Virus record (IMG/VR): IMGVR_UViG_3300036715_000866
Span: 1 to 55,106 of that record
Reading direction: 5' to 3' (one strand)
DNA from: a virus
DNA length: 55,106 nt
In this document: piece after piece, positions 28,501 to 52,519 of the stretch
Numbering within the stretch: the first letter of the stretch is position 1
Layout: the number at the start of each line of letters is the position of its first letter
Notes under the pieces: model-generated
The model's input: the letters and a program-made list of their open reading frames with translations, nothing else
The model's database searches: none
Told to the model about the DNA's origin: nothing
Made by a program: the position numbers and the translations under genes

Positions 28501-28824
28501 CTATCCGGCATCCTCGTCATGCAGCAGGAACACCCCGCCGCCCACCGGGTCTTCAACCTCGGCGCGGGTCAGGTTGTAGGCGGCGTTCTGGCCGTACTCG
28601 GCGACGGCTGCCTCGATGGCGGAATCGAGCGTGGCATGTTCCGGCATCCTGGCCATGCAGTCGGGGTCCATGTACTCGCCCAGCAGGTGCAGGCTGTAGC
28701 GGGTATAGTAGCGTTTCAGGAGCGCCTTGACGAAGAACCAGTACACGCCGAAGTTGCGGTAGCGGCGGGGGTCCTGCTGCAACAGTTGCAGGGTTGAGGC
28801 GGCGAACTTGTTGGGGGAGATCAT
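28501..28824 (-). CDS. Cargo-region helical protein
   Basis: 107 residues from the ATG at 28824, which overlaps the DarB-like stop (28821-28824). It is helical with an aromatic segment (RRYRNFGVYWFFVKALLKRY), a charged middle and an acidic end (DPVGGGVFLLHDEDAG). No membrane signal is strong enough. The longer frame to 29049 overlaps the DarB-like gene. Coupling to that gene suggests a partner or packaging role; the family is unknown to me. Confidence 0.55.
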   Translation of the reverse strand: MISPNKFAASTLQLLQQDPRRYRNFGVYWFFVKALLKRYYTRYSLHLLGEYMDPDCMARMPEHATLDSAIEAAVAEYGQNAAYNLTRAEVEDPVGGGVFLLHDEDAG

Positions 28825-31800
28825 GCGGCCTCCTTGCTTTTGGAGGCGCCTTCGGCCTCGCGCTTCTCGGCGATATTCAGGCTTTCCTCGATCACGTCTC
28901 GAACCGTGCGGTTTGAATTTCCAGAATACCGGTAATCTTGCAGCAGGCCATTGTGGGTTAATCCAAGCGCGGCCATGGTCATGTCGGCATCTCCTGACTT
29001 CTCCGCCACCTTGAGCATGGCCCGCAGTTCCGCAGCCGTATGGCCCCATCCCCGCGACATCGCCGCCAGCGCCTCACGCGCATTGCCTTCCGGGTGATGC
29101 TTCTCAGCCGCCTTCGCCATGGCCACCGCCAGATCACGCTGGCCGGATTCCACGGCCATGCGGTAGAGGGCGTTGTGGACGCTCATGTCCTGGGTGTGGT
29201 GATAGGCATAGGCATCGTGCAGGCCGGAATCGTATCTCGACTCGGGCGCCTTCGGGACCAGCGACTTCATCTCACGCCCCAGAACCCCGTCATGCCTCGC
29301 CTTCGCCCACAGGATCGCCAGCGCGCGGCGATTCCAGCGCACTCCGGCACCATGCCCTTTCTCCGGGTTGATCACGTTGCCCAGCGGCGCGGCCTCGCGG
29401 ATAGCCTCGGTGAAGGTCTTGGCGCGGCGCACCCGTTCCAGTTGCTGCTTCTCGAACCGCTTCTTGAGCGCGCGGATGGTCGGCGTGGTGGCACCGTAAC
29501 TCTGTTTCTCCTGGTTCTGGTCGTTGACCAGTTGCGAATAGGGATTGACGCCTCTCTGGTCATAACCGGTATCCCGGTATTTCGACATCGCACGGGTTTC
29601 CGTCTTCCCGGGCTTCCTGGTCACATAGTCGATGCCGAAGGTCCGCGTGCGCCGCGCATCCATCCAAGCATCCTCGACCTTCTTCTTGTTCTCGTCGGTC
29701 GGCAGCAGGAAGTCATGGGTACCTTCCTTCCCCTTGATTTCGTAGCTCTTCATCATCTCGACCTTGCCCGTGGCCTTGTTGACCATGGGGGTCTGGTAAG
29801 GGAACGCCACCTTGTAACCAAGGGCACCCTCGAACAGTTGCCGCTGGATGGCGTCTTTGTTGGCCGTCAGCACGTTCGACGGCATGGCGTAGACATCCTC
29901 GTACTTCTTTAGGCTGTTGACCTTTTCAGCTGCGGCCTTCTCCATCTTCGCGGCCACCTCTTTGGCCTCCGCTTCCGGATCGTACTTGAAGTGCGTGATG
30001 CCGTGGCGCAGGGTTTCCAGGTCGACGCTGTGCTTTTCGGTTCCGGCATAGTCGCGCACCGTCACGGTGCCGGCGCGCACGTTGACGCCGGTGACCACGA
30101 ACTTACCCTCGTCAACCCCGGCATCGTTGACCGCCTGGAAGGCCACGCCGGCATGGTAGGCTTCGCCGGTCTGAGGCTGGATCACCGTAGGCACGTCGGA
30201 ATCGAGCGCCGCCTTGGCGGTGAAGAAGCGGTTCGACTTGAGCGCGGTATGCGCCGCGTCGAGTTTCTGTTTTAGGCGCGCGGCCGTCGCCGTGCCCTTG
30301 TTCTTGAGCGCCTTGAACCCGGCCTTCAGTTCCTGGAAGCGGACGAATTCGCTCGCCGCCTTCACCCGCTCTCCGGCCTCGTGCTGCGCCGTGGCCAGGG
30401 CCTTGTCGGCCGCGAACTTGGCGCGCGCCGCATCCGGGTCGGCGGCCATCATGATCTGGATGTCCTCGCGGCTGAATTTCCCCTCGCGCGACAGGTTTTC
30501 AACCCGGTCGCCGCCACCCCAGATCAGGTCTTGCCAGTCCTTCTTGGCGGCAATCGCCTGGTGCCGGTAGCCATCGAACGAGCCTTTCGACAGGTAGGTG
30601 TGAATCCGCACCGCCTCGCTGATGTTGCCCTGGCGCAGGCCGCGCCCGTTGCGCTGCTGCATGCTGGCCGGCTCCCACGGCAGGTCGGCGTGGTGAATGT
30701 CAGTGGTGCCTTTCTGGAGGTTCAGGCCCTCGCCCATCGTCGCCGTGTTTCCGATCACTACCAGGAGTTTCCCGGAATTGTAGGCGTCGGCGATGTTCTG
30801 GCGCTTGACCGAAGACGATGCCACCTGCGCATTGATGACGCCGATCTTGTCGCGCGGAATTCCTGCCGCAACCAGGGCGGCAACGATCTTGTCGTGCGAG
30901 TCGATGTAGTCGGAAAACACTACCTGGCCGCCGTCGGCCAATCCTTCCGCGACATGCTTGGCCAGGGCCGCATACTTCGGGCTCTTCTCGCCCGCGTGCG
31001 CCACCGGATCGAGGATTTCCAGGTCGAGGGCGGCCTTGTTCATCTTGTCCATGATGGAGAAGATGTGGCTGTCGCCGGTAGCATCCTTGTCCCTGGCGGA
31101 TTCCTCAAGCTGGATGCGCAAGTCGGCATAGACCGCTTCCTGTGCAGGCGACATGGTGACAAAGTGGAGATGGTCGTCGCGCGCCGGCAGCATGAGTCCA
31201 ACCTGTTCGGCCGTGGTGCGGTCGATGTACCGCTTCATGATTTCGCGCAACTCGCCCATGTTCTTGAAACCAGAGGTAACCAGCGCCTCTTCGATTTCGC
31301 CGCGCGTGTTCAGGATGTTGTCCTTGGTGAACTCGCAGAACCGGTCAAGGAAGTCCTCGCTGTTGCGGATGCCGATGTTCTCGAAGGCTTCCGGGGCGAT
31401 GTGCGACAACATGCTGAAGATTTCCAGCGGGCTGTTCTTCGTCGGCGTCGCGGTCAAGCCGTAGATGCCCTTGCCGCCATGGTTTTCGAGCAGCCAGCGC
31501 GCCTTCAGGTTGAAGTCCATCGAGCGGTCGGAAAGGCCCTGGCCGCCAAGAAACTTGGGCGCCTCGCCGAAGCGCGTCTTGGCGGCGTAGAGGTTTTTCT
31601 GATGGTGCATTTCATCGGCGATCAGCATGTCGATGCCGATGTCGTTGAAATAGATGGCGTCGGTTCGCTTGCCGATTTCCCGCTGCGCGATGGCCTGCTC
31701 GTAGGCTTCCTTGATCCGCTTGCGGCGCTTGTCTCCGGCCTGCTCAAGGCTGTCGCCGCGCTGCACCCAGAAGTCCTTGCTGTAGTAGTTCTCCTTGGTG

Positions 31801-34800
31801 ATCGGGTCGAGGTCGAGTTCCTGGAACGCCGGCTCGCTGATGATCACGAAGTCGTAATCGTTCTGCGACAGATCGTGGTACTTGCGCTTGCGCTCATTGG
31901 CGTTGTCGTCGCGGCCGGTCAACTTGCCGTCCTTCATGGTGAATTCGGCGCCGATGGTCAGCACCTTGGCGCTGGGGAACCACTTCTGGCATTCCGCATA
32001 CCAGTTAGCCAGCACCGACTTTGGAACCACGATGCCCGGCTTCTTGGCGCTGCCGTTGATCTTCGACATGCGGGCCAGCAGCAGGCCGCGCAGGGTGTTG
32101 TGTGTGACGATGAAGTTGTCAGTCACATAGAGGCGAGAGGGATGCGCCACAGAGATGCACTGCGCCGGCTTCACGCCAACAGGCTCTATCGTATCGAAGT
32201 ACCTGATAGGCAGGTATTTTGTGCTCTCTCGGAATCGCTCGACCTTACGGCTATGCAGGAACGGGACCACTCCTGACGGCATGCGAACGCCTACTGTGTA
32301 GGCAAGTCGCCCGGTACGCTTCTCGCCTTTGTGGGTGAACGTCGGCGTCTTCGTCGATATCCACGCATTGCCGCCAAGCGACTGAACCAGGAACACCACA
32401 TCATCCGCAAGGCGCTGGCTGGTGCTTGTGTATTGCACGGCGCAGCCGTTCTTGCTGACATAGCCGTCTGTGTCCATCAGGCCGTGCAGCACGGCGAGAC
32501 GAACTTCAGACGAATTGAACTTGTAGGCGTCCGGAATGAACTTCTCGGGTGAATGCACCTTCATGCCAAGCACGTCCAGGACTGCACCAACCGCATTGCG
32601 GGTGGTGCAGTCGATCACGTCGCGGCGCAGCCTAAGGGATGGACGATTCCCTTCCGGCGCGAACTGCTTGCCGATCATGCCTGATGGCAGCATTCCGGCA
32701 ATCGCATCGAGAATGGCTTGTTCAGGTTTGGTGATGGCCGGAGAAAACCCAACCAGGCTTCCGTCGCCGATCAGCGCACCCAGCAGGTAGGGATGCAACG
32801 GCACTTCAGGCCCAGCGAATTCAACATTTTTTATCATTGGGATCGCGTGGTTCCTGCTACCACGATAGCGCAACGTCTGCATGATTTCGGCCAGCGCCCG
32901 CACCTTCGGAATTCCGCCATCGCCGCATCCGCGCCGTGCGTTGTTCTTCTCGATTTGCGTCTGCGTCAGCCAAAGATGCTCTGCGCAGCACTCTGTTGCG
33001 GCACCATCCGAGAAGGTGACGCGGAAAATCTCCTTCGCGCCCTGGGGGAACACGCCTGTTACCTCAGTGGGAGTCCCGTCACCAGCAATCACCAGATCGC
33101 CAACCTGAATATCGCCCATCAACTTCCAGCCGGCAGGCGTCAGAATCTTGGCGTCGAGCGGCTGGGCTTTCCCGAGCCCAACGTCTGCCGCGATGATGCC
33201 CTTCCCGGACGCCAGCGCCCACCGCAGGCCGGGCCACTGGTAATCCTTAATCTTGTCATGGTTGGCAAGGCCGGGAACATCTATCGGCTCGCCGGAGAAC
33301 TCCTTGGGCACGAATCCCTTGAACTTCCTGTTGTAGAGGTCTTCCACCTCTTCCCGGTATTTCGATGCGGCCAGCCAGGTCTTGAACTCGTCGTTCATCT
33401 TCTCGACCAGCGGCAGGTCGTCTTTCTTGACGCCGGAGCGGTTCAGGTACTTGGTCAGCAACGGATCACTGACCCCCCCCGAGACATAATAGACGCCCTT
33501 GTCGAACGTCACGCTGGATGGTTCGAGCCCCTGGTAATACGTCGAGGTCGGGTAATCGGCCTGCGCCTGCGCCACCTGGGCATCGCGCCAGGCGTCGAGA
33601 ATGCGCAGCGGGATGAAGGCGGAATTGACCTTGATTTCCACGTCTTCCAGTGACTTGGCGTCGATCACGTCTTCCAGGCGCTTCACCTGGGCTTCCACTT
33701 TCTCGCGCATGCCTGGCGGAAGCGCCGCATTCGCCAGCAGCGCCTGCGCGGCGTCGAGTTTCGGCCAGAGTTCGCCCGTCAGGTAGAAATTCATCGGCGC
33801 CCACCGGTCTAGGCCGCCCCAGGCGTAGCTGGCATCGGCAGTAAGATGGTCCAGCGTCTCATCGCGGTCCTTGCCCATGGCTTCGGCCAGTTCATCCAGG
33901 GTGAATTCTCCGCTTTCGTGCTTCAGCGCCAGGGAATGCGCCACCGTGTCGAAGGTTCCTTCGATGCGATCCGCCATGCGCCCGGTCACCACGTCGGATA
34001 GGGCGCCATCCTTGCCGACGGCGCCGATCAGGCGATACAGCGTCTTGTCGGTAGCGGCGGCCACCAGGAGGTTGGGGTTATTGGCCGGTACTCCATGCCG
34101 CGCCACCCAAGCGCGAATGTCGGCTTCCAACTTCGGGCGGTCGGCAGCCTGCCCAGTCATGAGCCGGTCCAGTTCGCCGGCCAGCGCCTGAGCTTCGGTC
34201 ACGGCTTCCGTCTGCATTGCCTCGTCTACGCGGCGCCAGCGCGGCGGGTTGCCCTGGAGCACGTAGTCCACGCCGTCGATGGTGCGGATGTCGCCCACCT
34301 TCGCTGTGTCCTGGTAGGGGATGCTCTTGGCGCCAGTCATGGCGCGGTTGCGCGCGGCGTCGTCGCCCAGCGCCTCCAGTATGGCTGGCATGTCCGGAGT
34401 GCTGCCGACAGGGTGCGGCACGAATTTGGCGATTTCTTCCGGTACGCCGTTCATCGAGCCGTTGACGGTGTAAATCTCCCCGAACGCGCGCTTGGCGGTA
34501 CCGGCGGAACCGAACAGGTTGCCGGCGCCGCGCTTCTCGAAGTAACCGCCGCCCAGGAACTCGTCGTCCCACACGCCCAGCTTGCGCAAGACATCCTGGC
34601 CCACAGTGCCTAGCGCGCCGGCCACCTCGTCGGGGCGCTTACGCAGGTAGATGATGTCGGCGGTCACGTCGGTGTGACTGGCCTCGAAGGCGCTGTTGGG
34701 CATACGCTGCGCGCCCAGGAACTCGGCCTTGCGCAGCATCCGTTCCCGGAATGCGCGGCCGTTCTTGCTGTCCATGATGCCGGCCGGCACGACCATCACG

Positions 34801-35969
34801 CACAGGCCGTCCGGCAGGGTCTTGTCGAGCGAGGTGTCGATGAAGTATTCCTCGGCCTTGCCCAGGTCTTTCTTGTCGTCCTTCAGCAGCGATCCGCGCG
34901 GGCCGTAGGGGGGATTGCCGATTGCGATGCCGACACGGCGCATATCCTGGGTGGCGAACCGCTCCAGGCTGGCGTTGACGATTTCATGGCCAGGATGCAG
35001 CGCCACGGCAATCTTGGAAGAAACAGGGTCCAATTCAACCCCGATCACCTTGACGCCTTGCGGCGCGGTATGCAGGAACACGCCTGTCGCGCAACTCGGC
35101 TCCAAGGCGGTTCCCTCCGGGAAACCAAGGCGCGCTGCGACAGCCCACATGGCGCCTGCCACGGCCGGGTCAGTATAGAACTCGTTGAGGCTGTCGCCGC
35201 AGCCGCCATTGCCGGAATATTGGCGCAGCACGGCAAGGTCGGCTTCGCTCATGTCGACAGGAGCCTTCTCGGCTACCAGGCGCGCGGCCTCGGCGTTGAG
35301 CGCGCGCCGTGCTGCCTTTCCGATACCGGCCGGGACGCCGAAGGTCGGCATCCTGGCTGGGTCGTAGGCTTCAGTGGTGGATGCCGGCGGCGTAGGGGTG
35401 ATGGTTGTTTCCACCTTTGGCGACTCGGCCGCCTTCGCATCCCATTCCGCCTTCAGTTCCGCATGCGCCGCCGTACCAACCGAAGGAATTCCGCCGATGC
35501 GGTCCTTGGCGAAGTCGGAGAAATACTTGAAGTCGGACGCCGACCGCTTTGCCTTGACTGGCTTCGGTGCGTTCGCTGGCGAAAACAGATCATCCACTGC
35601 CGGCGCCGGAGGGGTCATAGCCAACCGCGCTTCAACCGCATCCGCCGTGGTCTTCCCGACCCTGGCCATCTCCGCCACGAGGTGTGCGCGCTGCTCGCCG
35701 GTGAGCCCGTCCAGCATCGAGGCAATGCGGCGCTCGCCGCCCTTCTTGGCGATGAATTCACCAAGGATGTCGCGGGTTCCCTTCGGGGCCGGCGCTTCGC
35801 CGAATAAGTCGTTCTGCTCTGGAGCCTTCGGTTTGTCGGCGCGCTTCTTGCGATGGGTGGCGGCAGGGGGAACGAAGGTACCCTTCTTGTTGACGTATCC
35901 CGCCTGCATAACAGGCATGTCGAATAGTGCGGCCTGGTCTGCCTTGAGCAGAAAAAGAATGTGCTTCAT
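28821..35969 (-). CDS. DarB-like DNA methyltransferase-SNF2 helicase (with intein), anti-restriction
   Basis: 2382 residues (2025 after intein removal). The start is the ATG at 35969 (MKHILFLLKADQ) with CAGGACC upstream; an earlier ATG at 36095 would lie upstream of promoter F and in the Res stub. Features: module with AGYVNKKGTFV (about 20-35); N6-adenine methyltransferase with NPPY at 352-355; helicase with Walker A GLGK-T interrupted by the intein (residues 935-1291), DEMH at 1452-1455 and QRNGRGLRQG at about 1771; basic C-terminal third. P1 DarB has this same order of MTase then helicase and is injected to protect DNA from type I restriction. Function here is inferred. Confidence 0.8.
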   Translation of the reverse strand: MKHILFLLKADQAALFDMPVMQAGYVNKKGTFVPPAATHRKKRADKPKAPEQNDLFGEAPAPKGTRDILGEFIAKKGGERRIASMLDGLTGEQRAHLVAEMARVGKTTADAVEARLAMTPPAPAVDDLFSPANAPKPVKAKRSASDFKYFSDFAKDRIGGIPSVGTAAHAELKAEWDAKAAESPKVETTITPTPPASTTEAYDPARMPTFGVPAGIGKAARRALNAEAARLVAEKAPVDMSEADLAVLRQYSGNGGCGDSLNEFYTDPAVAGAMWAVAARLGFPEGTALEPSCATGVFLHTAPQGVKVIGVELDPVSSKIAVALHPGHEIVNASLERFATQDMRRVGIAIGNPPYGPRGSLLKDDKKDLGKAEEYFIDTSLDKTLPDGLCVMVVPAGIMDSKNGRAFRERMLRKAEFLGAQRMPNSAFEASHTDVTADIIYLRKRPDEVAGALGTVGQDVLRKLGVWDDEFLGGGYFEKRGAGNLFGSAGTAKRAFGEIYTVNGSMNGVPEEIAKFVPHPVGSTPDMPAILEALGDDAARNRAMTGAKSIPYQDTAKVGDIRTIDGVDYVLQGNPPRWRRVDEAMQTEAVTEAQALAGELDRLMTGQAADRPKLEADIRAWVARHGVPANNPNLLVAAATDKTLYRLIGAVGKDGALSDVVTGRMADRIEGTFDTVAHSLALKHESGEFTLDELAEAMGKDRDETLDHLTADASYAWGGLDRWAPMNFYLTGELWPKLDAAQALLANAALPPGMREKVEAQVKRLEDVIDAKSLEDVEIKVNSAFIPLRILDAWRDAQVAQAQADYPTSTYYQGLEPSSVTFDKGVYYVSGGVSDPLLTKYLNRSGVKKDDLPLVEKMNDEFKTWLAASKYREEVEDLYNRKFKGFVPKEFSGEPIDVPGLANHDKIKDYQWPGLRWALASGKGIIAADVGLGKAQPLDAKILTPAGWKLMGDIQVGDLVIAGDGTPTEVTGVFPQGAKEIFRVTFSDGAATECCAEHLWLTQTQIEKNNARRGCGDGGIPKVRALAEIMQTLRYRGSRNHAIPMIKNVEFAGPEVPLHPYLLGALIGDGSLVGFSPAITKPEQAILDAIAGMLPSGMIGKQFAPEGNRPSLRLRRDVIDCTTRNAVGAVLDVLGMKVHSPEKFIPDAYKFNSSEVRLAVLHGLMDTDGYVSKNGCAVQYTSTSQRLADDVVFLVQSLGGNAWISTKTPTFTHKGEKRTGRLAYTVGVRMPSGVVPFLHSRKVERFRESTKYLPIRYFDTIEPVGVKPAQCISVAHPSRLYVTDNFIVTHNTLRGLLLARMSKINGSAKKPGIVVPKSVLANWYAECQKWFPSAKVLTIGAEFTMKDGKLTGRDDNANERKRKYHDLSQNDYDFVIISEPAFQELDLDPITKENYYSKDFWVQRGDSLEQAGDKRRKRIKEAYEQAIAQREIGKRTDAIYFNDIGIDMLIADEMHHQKNLYAAKTRFGEAPKFLGGQGLSDRSMDFNLKARWLLENHGGKGIYGLTATPTKNSPLEIFSMLSHIAPEAFENIGIRNSEDFLDRFCEFTKDNILNTRGEIEEALVTSGFKNMGELREIMKRYIDRTTAEQVGLMLPARDDHLHFVTMSPAQEAVYADLRIQLEESARDKDATGDSHIFSIMDKMNKAALDLEILDPVAHAGEKSPKYAALAKHVAEGLADGGQVVFSDYIDSHDKIVAALVAAGIPRDKIGVINAQVASSSVKRQNIADAYNSGKLLVVIGNTATMGEGLNLQKGTTDIHHADLPWEPASMQQRNGRGLRQGNISEAVRIHTYLSKGSFDGYRHQAIAAKKDWQDLIWGGGDRVENLSREGKFSREDIQIMMAADPDAARAKFAADKALATAQHEAGERVKAASEFVRFQELKAGFKALKNKGTATAARLKQKLDAAHTALKSNRFFTAKAALDSDVPTVIQPQTGEAYHAGVAFQAVNDAGVDEGKFVVTGVNVRAGTVTVRDYAGTEKHSVDLETLRHGITHFKYDPEAEAKEVAAKMEKAAAEKVNSLKKYEDVYAMPSNVLTANKDAIQRQLFEGALGYKVAFPYQTPMVNKATGKVEMMKSYEIKGKEGTHDFLLPTDENKKKVEDAWMDARRTRTFGIDYVTRKPGKTETRAMSKYRDTGYDQRGVNPYSQLVNDQNQEKQSYGATTPTIRALKKRFEKQQLERVRRAKTFTEAIREAAPLGNVINPEKGHGAGVRWNRRALAILWAKARHDGVLGREMKSLVPKAPESRYDSGLHDAYAYHHTQDMSVHNALYRMAVESGQRDLAVAMAKAAEKHHPEGNAREALAAMSRGWGHTAAELRAMLKVAEKSGDADMTMAALGLTHNGLLQDYRYSGNSNRTVRDVIEESLNIAEKREAEGASKSKEAA
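32097..33167 (-). other. Intein with LAGLIDADG endonuclease, class 3-type
   Basis: 357 residues inserted after K934 inside GLGK|T of the helicase Walker A. It starts with Ala1 (AQPLDAKILTPAGWKLMGDI), not Cys or Ser, and ends VTHN before the extein Thr. Block B has C61xxH64-L-W66, block F has C337 (AQCISV), and the +1 residue is Thr: the Trp-Cys-Thr set of class 3 inteins, which use the block F Cys as first nucleophile. LAGLIDADG-type motifs LLGALIGDG (128-136) and LHGLMDTDG (227-235) show a homing endonuclease. Splicing is needed to restore the ATPase. Confidence 0.9.
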
Positions 35970-35995
35970 CGCCTGGTCCTGTGAGATTCCTGGCG

Positions 35996-36010
35996 ATGAT
36001 GGCGTCACGA
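35996..36010 (-). promoter_or_regulatory. Phage promoter motif, copy F (DarB-like gene)
   Basis: Minus strand: TCGTGAC GC CATCAT, 5 nt after the stop of the Res stub. The DarB-like ATG at 35969 follows after a leader of about 20 nt containing AGGA, so this copy gives a normal Shine-Dalgarno start, unlike A, B, D, G and H. Confidence 0.75.
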
Positions 36011-36015
36011 TTGTT

Positions 36016-36189
36016 TCAGTCGGCCGGGAAGCCAGACAGCGGGTGATACGGATTTCCCCGCCCCCACAGGCGTTCGGTGGTGGCGGTGAAGGCAATCGAT
36101 GGTGACGGCAGTTCGTGGCAGGCCTTGAAATAGGCTTCCACGCTGTCGAGCACTTGCTGTTGATAGATTTTCGGTGCGAATCCGGACAT
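36016..36189 (-). pseudogene. Type III restriction Res subunit, N-terminal stub
   Basis: 57 residues, MSGFAPKIYQQQVLDSVEAY followed by FKACHELPSPSIAFTATTER and ending LSGFPAD, then a stop. This looks like the first part of type III restriction endonuclease (Res) proteins, just before where the helicase Walker A should appear. It starts 3 nt after the Mod stop, as in a mod-res operon. The remaining 900 or so residues, including helicase and nuclease, are gone; promoter F follows at once. A deletion removed restriction but kept methylation. A short peptide may still be made. Confidence 0.7.
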
Positions 36190-36192
36190 GGC

Positions 36193-37905
36193 TTACACCT
36201 CCAGCGCGTAAGGGGTTTGCTTGAAGGTGATGCCCTCGCGCGCGGCGCGGGCCCCCATGCGATTGGCGGCGGCGTAGATCACTTTGGGGCCGTCGAACTC
36301 CGGCAGCACTTCGAACACCGGGCCGGTGAGCACGTTGCCGCCACCAACGGACTTATCCTTGAGGATACCGTTGTAGAGCAGGTAGATCGCGCGCCCCTCG
36401 TGCACGCCGAGCAGCGGCGAGTCAGCCTGGCCCGTAAAGCCGGTGCCGGTCTCGGCGAACCAGACGAACTCGGCCAGTTGCGCGAATTTCACGTCGCTGC
36501 GGATCTGACCATCTGCGTCGAACAGCGGCTCGGCGGACAGGCGGCAGAACTGGAAGCCGCCGCCGAGGCCTTCGATTGGGACTCGCTTCTTGCCGGCAAG
36601 CGGCGTGTAGCCCTCGATGGCCTTTCGGACGCGCTCGCGCGTCTTGTTCCGTGCCACGTCGTCGTTGAGTTCAATGAGGATGAAGCGAACGGGCGCTTTC
36701 AAGTGCTGATTCAGCCTGAGCACAGCGTGCGCCGTGGTGCCGGAGCCGCCAAAGCTATCGAGTACGAGGTCACCGGGCTCGACCACCATGCCCACCAGGT
36801 CGGAAATGACCTCGGAATCCTTCGGAAACGGAAACGCCCCGGCTCCGAGGATCGCTTCGACTTCCAGCGTGGCGGCCCGCCCGTCCTTGTAGAACACGCT
36901 CAGCATCGGCTCTTCGTCGATCTCGAACAGGTAGCTCTTGCAGTTCGGGATCGTCGTGTGGTCCTTGCCGAAGTGGATGCGAGGCGGGTCCTCGGCCAAA
37001 GCCGCCTTGGTGGTGTCCTCTTCCCATCGCCACCCGGTCGAGGGCATGGCGCAAGGCTGCTGGGTGACGGGGTGCAGGATGGGATAGCGCGGACGGTTCT
37101 CGCGACCATCATCGGGGCCCGCTAAGTTCGCCGCGAAGTACAGCCCGCGCTTATCAGACCAGTTGTAGTGCTTGTGCCCCTTGCGCGGATCACCCTTGGA
37201 CAGGGCGCGGTACCAAGCCATCATCTCCTTGCGGATCGCGGCGTGGTCATCACCGTGCTTCTTGCGCAAGCTCTCGTAGTGCTCCAGCACTGCGTCGATG
37301 CCCGGCTTCTTGCGTCGCCATCGGACATTTCGTTCTTTGAGCAGTGCTTTGTTGCGAGCGAAGGCAACGATGTATTCGTGCGTGACGGATACGAGCTTGG
37401 AATCGCCCTTCTTGCCCTTCTCCCAGACGATGGTGGCGACCTCATTGGAGGCGCCAAACACCTCGCGCATGAGGGCTTGAAGATTGCCGACCTCGTTGTC
37501 GTCGATGGAAACGAAGATCGCCCCATCCTCGCGCAAAAACTGCTTCAGCAGCACCAAGCGCGGGTACATCATCGACAACCAGCGGTCATGCCGGTCGAGC
37601 GTTTCGCCTGCCTTGCCCACCACCTCGCCCAGCCACTTGCGGATCTCCGGGCTGTTGACGTTGTCGTTGTAGACCCAGCCCTCGTTGCCGGTGTTGTACG
37701 GCGGGTCGATGTAGATGCACTTCACCTGCCCCGCGTAGCGCGGCAGCAGGGCTTTGAGCGCGTGCAGGTTGTCGCCCTGCACGATCAGATTGCCGCTCCC
37801 GCTGTTGCCGCAAGACAGTTCCGGCACCGGCTCCAGCTGGCGGACCGGCACCACCTTGTGGTGGTTGACAACGGCTTCTTTGCCGATCCAGTTGAGCGTG
37901 GGCAT
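36193..37905 (-). CDS. mod: Type III restriction-modification Mod methyltransferase
   Basis: 570 residues. DPPYNTG at 67-73 is motif IV, and SFGGSGTT at 384-391 is motif I (SAM binding), in the order motif IV then I typical of beta-class N6-adenine or N4-cytosine methyltransferases such as M.EcoP15I. The target recognition region would be about 140-340. SD AAGGA is 8 nt before the ATG. The companion Res is reduced to a stub. It would methylate phage and host DNA and so protect the phage from cognate type III enzymes. Specificity cannot be read from sequence. Confidence 0.85.
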   Translation of the reverse strand: MPTLNWIGKEAVVNHHKVVPVRQLEPVPELSCGNSGSGNLIVQGDNLHALKALLPRYAGQVKCIYIDPPYNTGNEGWVYNDNVNSPEIRKWLGEVVGKAGETLDRHDRWLSMMYPRLVLLKQFLREDGAIFVSIDDNEVGNLQALMREVFGASNEVATIVWEKGKKGDSKLVSVTHEYIVAFARNKALLKERNVRWRRKKPGIDAVLEHYESLRKKHGDDHAAIRKEMMAWYRALSKGDPRKGHKHYNWSDKRGLYFAANLAGPDDGRENRPRYPILHPVTQQPCAMPSTGWRWEEDTTKAALAEDPPRIHFGKDHTTIPNCKSYLFEIDEEPMLSVFYKDGRAATLEVEAILGAGAFPFPKDSEVISDLVGMVVEPGDLVLDSFGGSGTTAHAVLRLNQHLKAPVRFILIELNDDVARNKTRERVRKAIEGYTPLAGKKRVPIEGLGGGFQFCRLSAEPLFDADGQIRSDVKFAQLAEFVWFAETGTGFTGQADSPLLGVHEGRAIYLLYNGILKDKSVGGGNVLTGPVFEVLPEFDGPKVIYAAANRMGARAAREGITFKQTPYALEV

Positions 37906-37990
37906 TCAGGCCATCCTTCTATTTTTTGCGCAGAGATGCCGGGGCAGCGCCACCGTGTTTTTCTTCATCCGCGCCCTAGCCGCGTACCCA

Positions 37991-38152
37991 CTATCCAAGC
38001 AGCATTCCTCCCATGGGGCCGACGGCGGCGGAAAAGTCGTTGAAGCTGACGCCCTTTGTCGCCATGACATAGGGCGCCGCCATGGTGTAGCCCATCACCA
38101 CCAGCAGGGCTAGGACGGCGAGGAAGTTGGTCTTGCGGGTTCCTTCGGTCAT
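37991..38152 (-). CDS. Small membrane protein
   Basis: 53 residues: MTEGTRKTNFLAVLALLVVM at the N-terminus with one hydrophobic helix (about 9-31), then a Gly/Met-rich C-terminus (FSAAVGPMGGMLLG). It overlaps the stop of 38149-39666 (ATGA) and so is expressed with it. It could be a holin-like, a membrane-anchoring or a virion protein; nothing distinguishes these. About 85 nt without an obvious gene follow before the Mod start (a 20-codon frame MKKNTVALPRHLCAKNRRMA overlaps it). Confidence 0.55.
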   Translation of the reverse strand: MTEGTRKTNFLAVLALLVVMGYTMAAPYVMATKGVSFNDFSAAVGPMGGMLLG

Positions 38153-39666
38153 GATTGCTTCAGGAACAGGATGGCTTTTGCCATCGGCTTGGCACTGTCT
38201 TCCGCCATCACCTCGTCGACCTCTCCGGCCAGGTCAGGCCGCTTCTCGCGGATGTACCTCGCAATGGCCTGGCGATACTCGGCACGATTGCTCTCGAACA
38301 GGACACGGTACACATCATCCTTGCGCAGGCTGGCGATGGAATCAGCAGCCACCTTGATGTATTTCTCAATGTCGCCAGACGGCACTTGCGGCGTCACCTT
38401 TGCGCCCAGGTCCGCCGGCGCCTTCATCTCCGCCAGTTCCGCCCCCTGCTTCTTCTCCTCTTCCTTGTCGTCGGCATGACTGGGCGAGTTGAGTACGTCA
38501 ACCAGGTGCTCGTGCTCTTCGATGGCTTCATGCTTAGGCATGGAGTAGACAGCCTCCGCAAACAAATCCCCGGTATTCGGGTCCCGCTTGTGCCGGGTCT
38601 CCTTCGGCCTGGCAATGACGCCGGTGTGGTAGCTCTGCACCTTCACCGTCTTGCCGTTCACCACTCGGGTATGCGCTCGCACGTAGGACTTCATGAACAG
38701 CACCACCGGCGAACTACCGCCGAAGTCTCCCAGCATTTGCTTCATGTCAATCTCCATCCTCTTCGTGAGTTTCTTGCCGCGCACCATCTCGTCCGCCCGC
38801 GTGAGCAGGGTTCCGACATCGGCGTCGGTCCATCCCCCGACCCGCCATTGCAGGTAGTCGGCGGCCGTGTGCATGCCGGCCTGGCGCAGCGAAATCGCCA
38901 CGTCGCGCAGGGCTAGGCGGATGAATTGCGCCAGGTCATGCCAGCCATGCACGCGCACCAGGCTCTCCCGCTTCATCCCGGACAACACTTCGAGCGTGGC
39001 GGCGGCGACACCTTCGGCCGGCTGCCCGCGCGCCTTCACCAGGTCGCGCACGCGGCGGTTGCTGGCATGAATGCTGACCAGCAGGGAGTCAAGCACCGGC
39101 CCCTTCATGGCCTCCAGGGCGCAGCGCCGGCCGTCGCGCAGGAGCACATCGACTAGCTGCGTCTTGTTGCGGATATTCTTCGGGAACAGGTAGACGGTGC
39201 CGGCGTGGTAGAGACTTTCGACATCATCCTCGGCGCCGGCTTCCTTTATCCTCAAATACGCCTGCCATCCCAACTTCCCGCGCGCCTTCAGCGCATCCAT
39301 GCTTTCGACCACGGCTATGCCGATCTTGCCGCCAGCCGCGAACGCCTCGACGATGCGCCGCGCATCCTCTGCGGCCAGGTGCTGAGAGAGTTTGCCAACG
39401 CGGCGCGCCGGCCGCTTGTCTTCGTGCGGGGCGACATAGGTTCCGTCGCCGCGCCGGTACCCGGAAATGTGCGCCTTGATCATCTTCGGTTTGTCATTCG
39501 TGGCAAGCACTTTGACCTTGAACTCTTCCATCGGCATGGCGATGATTCCACCGAACACCCGTGGATCGTCGTAGTGGGCGAGAAACGCGCGCTTGGCTTC
39601 CTCCTCGCTGTCGTACCCCAGCATGACCTTTTGCTCGTCGCGCTTGGTGAAATCTGGGAAAGCCAT
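38149..39666 (-). CDS. Polyvalent cargo protein, C-terminal part of split pyrophosphatase-like gene
   Basis: 505 residues from the ATG at 39666 (MAFPDFTKRDEQKVMLGYDS). The first 55 residues continue the InPase-type domain whose N-terminal half is in the next frame upstream (39480-39929). Then comes ISGYRRGDGTYVAPHEDKR (about 69-87), a long helical region, and FMKSYVRAHTRVVNGKTVKV (about 320-340); it ends in AKAILFLKQS, like the start of other cargo proteins. The reading upstream of ATG 39666 is VVTT preceded by TAA. Polyvalent proteins with InPase domains occur near MuF genes in phages; catalytic function is not proven. Confidence 0.5.
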   Translation of the reverse strand: MAFPDFTKRDEQKVMLGYDSEEEAKRAFLAHYDDPRVFGGIIAMPMEEFKVKVLATNDKPKMIKAHISGYRRGDGTYVAPHEDKRPARRVGKLSQHLAAEDARRIVEAFAAGGKIGIAVVESMDALKARGKLGWQAYLRIKEAGAEDDVESLYHAGTVYLFPKNIRNKTQLVDVLLRDGRRCALEAMKGPVLDSLLVSIHASNRRVRDLVKARGQPAEGVAAATLEVLSGMKRESLVRVHGWHDLAQFIRLALRDVAISLRQAGMHTAADYLQWRVGGWTDADVGTLLTRADEMVRGKKLTKRMEIDMKQMLGDFGGSSPVVLFMKSYVRAHTRVVNGKTVKVQSYHTGVIARPKETRHKRDPNTGDLFAEAVYSMPKHEAIEEHEHLVDVLNSPSHADDKEEEKKQGAELAEMKAPADLGAKVTPQVPSGDIEKYIKVAADSIASLRKDDVYRVLFESNRAEYRQAIARYIREKRPDLAGEVDEVMAEDSAKPMAKAILFLKQS

Positions 39667-39929
39667 CGTGGTGACGACTTAGGCCATGCCAGCATCCTCG
39701 CTATAGGGCCGGCGAGAAACACGTCCACCTGGTCGCCGTCGACGCCCATGCTTCCGTTGATGTAGCCGTAGTCAGCCCGCATCTTGGTCGCCCACTTTTT
39801 TTCTGTTCGTTCCACACCACGGCGCACGCTGCCCTTCGGGTTTTCGATGGCGATTTCGAGCCCCATGAAACGGACGTGGCGCTTCTTGTAATTGCCTGCC
39901 TTGATCTGTGCTGGCGTTGGAATGCTCAT
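39480..39929 (-). CDS. InPase-like domain, N-terminal part, frameshifted
   Basis: The true domain runs for the first 74 residues (MSIPTPAQIKAGNYKKRHVR ... ENPKGSVRRGV ... MRADYGYINGSMGVDGDQVD ... VFLAGP). After the CCT at 39705-39707 the sense shifts: the in-frame continuation IARMLAWPKSSPRW is out of pattern, while another frame reads SEDAGMA, stop (TAA, 39679-39681), VVTTMAFPDFTKRDEQ, which restores the family. So a one-base deletion near 39705 and a Tyr-to-stop change within 30 nt break the gene. The 149-residue frame is a likely aberrant product. Confidence 0.5.
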   Translation of the reverse strand: MSIPTPAQIKAGNYKKRHVRFMGLEIAIENPKGSVRRGVERTEKKWATKMRADYGYINGSMGVDGDQVDVFLAGPIARMLAWPKSSPRWLSQISPSATSKRSCWGTTARRKPSARFSPTTTIHGCSVESSPCRWKSSRSKCLPRMTNRR

Positions 39930-43267: not shown

Positions 43268-43282
43268 ATGATGACGTCACGA
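43268..43282 (-). promoter_or_regulatory. Phage promoter motif, copy G (MuF gene)
   Basis: Minus strand: TCGTGAC GT CATCAT, then 7 nt, then the MuF ATG at 43260. It lies in the 30-nt space between the barrel-like gene and MuF. Confidence 0.75.
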
Positions 43283-46585: not shown

Positions 46586-48076
46586 ATGGCTGCAAGACTC
46601 ACTTCAGACGCATTCATTGCGCGCTCAATTGCCTCGCACGGCGGCCGTTACGACTACTCGCGCGTTCAGTACAAAACCACCATGCAGCCGGTCGAGATTG
46701 TCTGCCCGGTGCACGGGGCATTCTGGCAGCGACCAAATCACCACATGGACGGAAAAGGCTGCCCGGCCTGCAAAGCAGCCGGAACGTCAAGCCGGCTCCG
46801 AGACCATGCGGATACGTTCATCGCCAAGGCGCGCGCCGTGCATGGCGACCGCTTCGACTACTCTCACGTCGCCTACGTTAAGTCATCGCTCAAGGTGGAG
46901 ATCCACTGCACGATACATGGCGCGTTCTGGCAAACTCCGAACAGCCACCTTGGACGCGCGGCTGGCTGTCCGAAGTGCGCCGGCAAGGGTATGAGCACGG
47001 CCGACTTCGTGGACAAGGCGCGCGCGGTTCATGGCGATGCCTTCGGATACCAGGACGCAGACTATCGCGGCATCAAGTCTGCGGTCACCGTCACATGCGC
47101 CAAGCATGGCAACATCCACCAGACGGCGGAGATCCACTTGGCAGGGAACGGCTGCCATCTGTGCTGGGGCGAAGCGACTTCGAGCCAGGCAGAATCAGAA
47201 CTTGCCGATTGGTGCGCATCGCTCGGCGTGCGCGTGCTGCGCAATGATCGCGCCGCGCTTGGACGCATGGAAATCGACATCTACCTGCCCGACCAGCAGA
47301 TCGGCATCGAGTTCAACGGCTGCTACTGGCATAGCCACCGCGTTCAGAAGAACAGCCGCCAGCACGAGTTCAAACACGAGGCGGCCAGGCGATCCGGCAT
47401 CCGGCTGATCACGGTATGGGATTACGACTGGCTGCACCGGCAAGCCATCGTCAAGCAGCACCTGGCGCATGCGCTTGGCCTGAATACACAAGCGCGCCTC
47501 AACGCCCGCTCTTGCAGCGTGGTGGAGTTGGCGCCGGCCCAGGCGAACGCGCTTTATGCAGAACACCACTTGCAAGGCGCCTGCCGTGGTGCCGTCGCCA
47601 GCTATGGGCTGGTTCATGACAGAAAACTGGTCGCATCAATGTCGTTTACCCAGGGCGGCCATCGGCGCGGCTTGATCGCGGCGCACGAATACGAACTGGC
47701 CCGCTACGCCACGTCGGCATCGGTGCGCGGCGGTGCCAGTCGATTGTTATCCGCCTTCGTCGCCCAGCATGCGCCGCGCGTTATCTGGTCGTTCTCGGAC
47801 GATCAGCACTTTGACGGCGGCCTCTACCCGTTGCTCGGTTTCGCTCAAGACGGCCGCATTCCTGCCGACTACCGAGTCGTAGACCCGCGCACGCTGCGCA
47901 CCTGGCACAAGAGCTTGTGGCAGCGCAAGAGTATCCCGCTCCGGCTGCGCGAGATGGGCAGAGCCGAATTGTTCGACCCAGCCAGCGACCCGCGTACCGA
48001 GTACCAAATGCACGATGTTGCCAAGGTCTTGCGCGTCTACGATTCAGGGAAAACGCGCTGGGTGTGGCGCGGCTGA
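46586..48076 (+). CDS. Free-standing homing endonuclease (DUF723 repeats, PD-(D/E)XK-type)
   Basis: 496 residues. Three DUF723-type units (about 6-66, 75-135 and 138-197) each end in a CxxHG ... GCxxC zinc knuckle. About 200-293 is a Vsr/Hef-like nuclease with MEIDIYLPDQQIGIEFNG (catalytic Asp and Glu) and YWHSHR. The last 180 residues (LYAEHHLQGACRGAVASYGL onward) resemble the acetyltransferase- or Mom-like domain that follows the nuclease in other phage endonucleases. It is on the opposite strand from its neighbours, with its own -10, as expected for an invading gene. It sits beside HNH and terminase genes. Confidence 0.75.
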   Translation: MAARLTSDAFIARSIASHGGRYDYSRVQYKTTMQPVEIVCPVHGAFWQRPNHHMDGKGCPACKAAGTSSRLRDHADTFIAKARAVHGDRFDYSHVAYVKSSLKVEIHCTIHGAFWQTPNSHLGRAAGCPKCAGKGMSTADFVDKARAVHGDAFGYQDADYRGIKSAVTVTCAKHGNIHQTAEIHLAGNGCHLCWGEATSSQAESELADWCASLGVRVLRNDRAALGRMEIDIYLPDQQIGIEFNGCYWHSHRVQKNSRQHEFKHEAARRSGIRLITVWDYDWLHRQAIVKQHLAHALGLNTQARLNARSCSVVELAPAQANALYAEHHLQGACRGAVASYGLVHDRKLVASMSFTQGGHRRGLIAAHEYELARYATSASVRGGASRLLSAFVAQHAPRVIWSFSDDQHFDGGLYPLLGFAQDGRIPADYRVVDPRTLRTWHKSLWQRKSIPLRLREMGRAELFDPASDPRTEYQMHDVAKVLRVYDSGKTRWVWRG

Positions 48077-52504: not shown

Positions 52505-52519
52505 AGATTACTGTCACGA
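52505..52519 (-). promoter_or_regulatory. Phage promoter motif, copy I (terminase)
   Basis: Minus strand: TCGTGAC AG TAATCT. The leader to the TTG at 52445 would be about 53 nt. This is the right-most copy and would start the whole structural block. Confidence 0.7.

Follow-up and report, generated by a model that had tools for sequence, protein, structure and literature searches.

A captured type III mod gene with severed neighbours beside a darB homologue in a phage genome

How does a phage come to carry the methyltransferase gene of a type III restriction-modification system together with no more than the beginning of its res gene, and what could a lone Mod do for it? Both questions are raised by one locus in IMGVR_UViG_3300036715_000866, a virus record of 55,106 bases that was analysed in full and is referred to here as the window. 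The features of the locus, in the order in which they are read, are as follows.

38149-39666, minus strand: 505-aa ORF, the C-terminal part of an InPase-like gene that is conserved ahead of darB in sister phages (PF18823 InPase, synteny)
37991-38152, minus strand: 53-aa membrane-protein-like ORF directly upstream of the insert (ORF)
37906-37997, minus strand: 3' remnant of an HTH_17 gene, about 30 codons, frameshifted and with an in-frame TAG (alignment with L028, L029 and L024)
36193-37905, minus strand: complete gene for a type III Mod DNA methyltransferase, 570 aa, ATG start (ORF, PF01555, PADLOC MTase_III, similarity to EcoP15I Mod)
36016-36189, minus strand: res stub, 57 codons from the start of a type III Res gene, closed by TGA (N-terminal identity to intact Res, edge of DNA homology)
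35995-36010, minus strand: conserved phage element TCGTGACGCCATCATC, called 'promoter F' in the initial annotation (one mismatch to the window consensus)
28821-35969, minus strand: darB homologue encoding a DarB-like methylase-SNF2 helicase of about 2382 aa, counted from an ATG at 35969, with an intein (domains, similarity to PHB04 and P1)

Results

Mod is complete and Res ends after 57 residues

The initial annotation of this DNA had described mod as complete and in possession of its motifs, and our analysis agrees. Homologue alignments span residues 1-570, the PADLOC MTase_III model PDLC03644 covers residues 1-569 (E 7.7e-215), and among solved structures EcoP15I Mod comes closest (4zcf, E 2.7e-64). 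DPPY lies at residues 67-70 and FGGSGTT at 385-391, with the recognition domain roughly within 139-380, so that the order is that of the beta class: DPPY first, then the recognition domain, then the AdoMet motif FGG. Type III Mods that make m4C have DPPY/F and FGG in common with those that make m6A (PMC8259958), and the motifs therefore do not decide between the two modifications. Relative to its three nearest bacterial relatives (L002-L004, see below), the codon changes private to the gene number 42 synonymous and 9 non-synonymous, with a pairwise dN/dS of 0.065-0.077, suggesting that Mod is under constraint, although the substitutions behind this constraint may partly predate capture. A scan for sigma-70 promoters around mod gave no more matches than expected by chance.

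The ATG of the stub lies 3 nt (GCC) past the Mod stop codon. That this frame, ending at 57 codons, begins a Res protein had been proposed together with a comparison to type III Res N-termini, and the comparison bore it out: in tblastn the 57 residues matched the start of Res, downstream of mod, in 66 fetched loci, the best at 98% identity (E 2e-36). A chance resemblance of a 57-aa frame to Res was rejected, given identities of up to 98% to the N-termini of intact Res. The matching genes are mostly ~900 codons long and continue right after residue 57 with MPYFCLRVPTGGGKT (Walker A region), placing the cut between D57 and this segment. In most of the closest loci, nucleotide homology to the bacterial mod-res loci stops at 36019-36020, 1-2 nt before the stub stop codon. 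Pfam, NCBIfam and PADLOC models do not name the stub, as is to be expected of 57 residues from before Walker A, and it had no match in plasmids. Intact Res matched no solved structure at E 0.001, and the domain position of residue 57 therefore rests on analogy with EcoP15I, in which Res RecA1 spans residues 7-269 (PMC4490356).

No further Res sequence occurs within the 55-kb record; sister records reach 84-98 kb, and a res gene may lie in genome sequence outside this record. A complete type III system would include a Res with helicase and PD-(D/E)XK nuclease domains, of which residues 1-57 alone remain here, and within this record Mod is an orphan methyltransferase with no cognate restriction gene. 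Compared with 40 homologues, a single one of the 57 stub codons is private; the change is synonymous, and no amino acid is private to the stub. On this account the cut looks recent, or else the changes accrued are too few to judge.

Both edges of the insert break a bacterial gene

At the downstream edge, the res frame ends at the start of the phage's own darB control region, because the conserved element TCGTGACGCCATCATC (TCGTGAC) starts at 36010, 5 nt past the stub stop codon. Of 27 sister loci, 26 have TCGTGA some 40 nt ahead of darB, a number that the base rate would put at 0.07. Hence the 'promoter F' reported directly after the stub is present as a conserved element, while its role as a promoter is one that we infer. 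Elsewhere in the window, a compact repeated element, TCGTGACGNCATNATG, occurs on the minus strand at 52519, 46539, 43282, 36010, 28498, 28347, 22076, 15165, 6409 and 4127. Most copies precede a phage gene by 13-75 nt, and 10 of the 12 TCGTGAC sites in the window are on the coding strand. The element resembles a promoter or regulator site that is specific to the phage and not of the sigma-70 type.

At the upstream edge, homology to the host loci runs past mod as far as about 37990-37997, into a broken HTH gene. A small HTH_17 gene precedes mod in host loci such as L029, in whose homologue the domain is recognized at E 6e-15; the remnant in the window has been frameshifted by a one-base deletion and contains the ribosome-binding region of mod. 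The stop codon of the 53-aa ORF falls at this junction, which may have truncated its C-terminus; we found no homologue of this ORF. The insert is thus an HTH'-mod-'res fragment of ~1.98 kb with both partner genes severed and phage genes on either side, and its DNA is 87-88% identical to that of its nearest relatives. The break in the HTH gene had been missed before and is the new element here. The earlier reading, capture of a type III system by the phage with loss of restriction, stands as regards bacterial origin, but with both ends broken a later loss of res is not established. Since the flanking genes are broken on both sides of the insert, capture of a fragment that never held the whole of res appears no less likely than a capture with deletion afterwards.

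The site is empty of mod and res in sister phages

We fetched 44 IMG/VR loci with DarB relatives and examined the ~40 that bear darB for Mod and Res. The gene order portal, p384, InPase, darB is kept in most of them, and in Bordetella phage PHB04 InPase is followed by darB after 45 nt, the gap being empty. The possibility of a full Res gene at this locus in sister phages, raised in the initial annotation as a check, was not realized: neither Mod nor Res was found near darB in any of the ~40 loci. The methyltransferase gene of the window is carried by a phage, its flanks being syntenic with PHB04 and other viral contigs. A near-identical phage was found neither by megablast of annotated phages, nor by a search for the exact junction pattern in viral contigs, nor with a helicase query.

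The interval between InPase and darB holds differing extra genes or long InPase extensions in sisters L102, L117 and L137; spacing at this site varies, and the site therefore tolerates cargo. In the window, the InPase-like gene lies in two frames relative to PHB04 (39480-39929 and 38149-39666, minus strand, with the break at about 39640-39720), a frameshift that may be genuine or may stem from a sequencing error. An HNH/homing-endonuclease-like gene (phrog_559; 46586-48076, plus strand) lies immediately ahead of the portal operon, on the strand opposite to the structural genes.

The darB product contains SNF2-rel_dom and Helicase_C domains that pass their cut-offs, a LAGLIDADG_3 domain, and an Eco57I methylase match weakly below cut-off. 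It is a phage-borne protein with the DarB antirestriction architecture, an adenine methylase fused to an SNF2/SF2 helicase, and is 55-56% identical to PHB04 protein ATI15645.1 and also similar to P1 DarB, a protein that is carried in the virion and gives protection in cis from type I systems (PMC12707154). An intein with a LAGLIDADG domain (32097-33167, minus strand) splits its helicase P-loop between GLGK and T and is absent from PHB04 DarB. A Mod without Res adjoins this DarB homologue, so that the description of an orphan methylase in the anti-restriction region is apt.

Closely matching bacterial loci retain a complete Res

The search for an intact, joined system in host genomes was successful. 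Mod is 91-95% identical across all segments to the proteins of three loci, L002 (a Proteobacteria MAG), L003 (Pseudoxanthomonas sp. J35) and L004 (a Sideroxydans MAG), all of which carry a complete Res (898-901 aa); with the recognition domain included, the identity of Mod to them is 93-94%. In nearly every relative compared, the two ends of Mod (residues 1-138 and 441-570) are conserved at 87-94% identity. The stretch that holds the recognition domain, residues 139-380, is shared with L002-L004 at 93-95% identity and with L014 at 79%; for the remaining relatives the figure is about 20%. With a matching recognition domain and a complete Res, L002-L004 therefore define the restriction systems that Mod should defeat. 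A closer donor was sought among 397 genomes of the order of G002, and none was better than L003 at 88%.

Downstream of mod, at least 800 Res residues were found in 68 of 80 bacterial loci; seven of the 80 lack a Res match, and their sequence stops a short way past mod. Besides the window, 13 viral contigs have Mod relatives, and in every one of them Res sequence follows mod, the window being the exception. Within this Mod family, the mod genes of L018, L020, L024, L026, L028, L032, L036 and L040 have near-identical ends (88-93%) and swapped recognition domains (about 20%).

Discussion

Proposed origin and function

We consider it probable that a caudovirus related to PHB04 captured an HTH'-mod-'res fragment, and that Mod alone methylates phage DNA and protects the progeny from the cognate type III restriction. 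The donor would have been a type III restriction-modification locus ordered HTH-mod-res, from which illegitimate recombination would have brought ~1.98 kb of bacterial DNA to a point between the InPase and small membrane-protein genes and the darB control element. The cargo would have been the whole of mod with its ribosome-binding site, together with 57 codons from the start of res and a 3' fragment of the HTH gene that is of no use. We would expect mod to be expressed on a phage transcript running from the element at 43282 towards darB. Type III Mods form dimers that can work by themselves and that modify a single strand of an asymmetric site (PMC4490356), and such a dimer could act on replicating phage DNA before packaging. 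Hosts with the cognate Mod-Res would then fail to restrict the progeny, an effect complementing that of DarB. Mod alone generally suffices for methylation (PMC8259958, PMC4490356). Two thermophile type III Mods need Res in order to methylate (PMC8259958), and activity of Mod on its own therefore cannot be assumed. Phage orphan methylases have been shown to shield DNA from restriction enzymes (PMC4190342). In this way the phage probably labels its DNA as 'self' towards bacteria with the intact system.

Part of this account could be replaced by a longer history, in which the whole of mod-res was captured first and res was later cut down to 57 codons, a restriction enzyme being useless or harmful to a phage. 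We regard this as possible, though the less favoured course. Whole systems do occur in phages, as in P1, which has mod-res beside darB, and Res follows mod in the other viral contigs with Mod relatives; a stub with a single private codon and no private amino-acid change also makes the cut look recent. Yet the 5' side is broken as well, inside the HTH gene, as if the insert had been cut at both ends, and no sister has a full or longer res at this locus. The record could instead be an assembly chimera in which a bacterial contig was wrongly joined to a phage contig, a suspicion fed by the source, a 55-kb virus record rather than a cultured phage, and by our failure to find a second copy of the junction in viral contigs. 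Such an error is very improbable, in that it would need two false joins in one intergenic spot, sparing the conserved darB element, with phage DNA of conserved synteny on both sides; the insert, moreover, is no close copy of its nearest relatives, and its HTH remnant has decayed.

Fragment capture leaves room for other uses of its cargo. Orphan methylases have regulatory roles in bacteria, and Mod might likewise serve gene regulation or the timing of DNA packaging or replication rather than protection from restriction. We think this unlikely for a gene that is found in this phage only and is absent from all sister loci, that adjoins the antirestriction gene darB, and whose specificity class is paired with Res in its bacterial relatives. 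Somewhat harder still to credit is that the phage Mod joins the Res or Mod of hosts with another specificity through the shared 87-93% ends. If it did, the phage would need Mod alone, since the host supplies Res; host Res would be drawn off its own Mod, blunting restriction broadly, or would even be sent to sites that the host leaves unmethylated. As for the 57-residue product, one could imagine that it binds Mod or serves as a decoy that blocks assembly of host Res, for its frame is open, its start is kept 3 nt past mod and it has no non-synonymous private change. We give this little credence: one synonymous private codon represents too few changes to show selection, the segment falls at the margin of the first RecA domain and lacks the ATP-binding motif, and in EcoP15I the contacts of Mod with Res are made by the ModA MTase domain and CTD (PMC4490356). 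We take the stub to be a remnant without function.

Comparison with known systems

Phage orphan methylases are already known, and the locus clearly exemplifies an established phage strategy. They are usually seen long after acquisition, with no trace of origin. What is unusual here is that the donor, both breakpoints and the empty site are all directly readable: one can see together where the insert is broken at either end, how the donor genes were ordered, that living donors have kept Res intact and that the site is empty in sisters. Both the route of acquisition, fragment capture beside an antirestriction gene, and the target system can therefore be named and tested.

L002-L004 hold the chromosomal counterpart, mod-res with a Res start shared with the window. 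In L002 and L003 the DNA homology to the window reaches into the gene upstream of mod, and where these loci have a complete Res the phage retains 57 residues. The empty counterpart is Bordetella phage vB_BbrM_PHB04 (Phabquatrovirus), with the same portal-p384-InPase-darB order but no mod or res, InPase and darB being adjacent. Lactococcal 936-type phages also carry methylases without a restriction partner, some in certain phages only and at one genome spot, and these have been shown to block restriction enzymes; unlike the Mod of the window they are type II-like, and the available text on them describes no partner-gene remnant (PMC4190342). A parallel in layout is EcoP1I of phage P1, likewise a phage-encoded type III Mod close to darB and on the same strand. 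P1 has res as well as mod, with mod downstream of darB, whereas the window has mod upstream and lacks Res, and the two Mods are 31% identical. The window is a second, independent case, after P1, of a type III Mod gene near darB.
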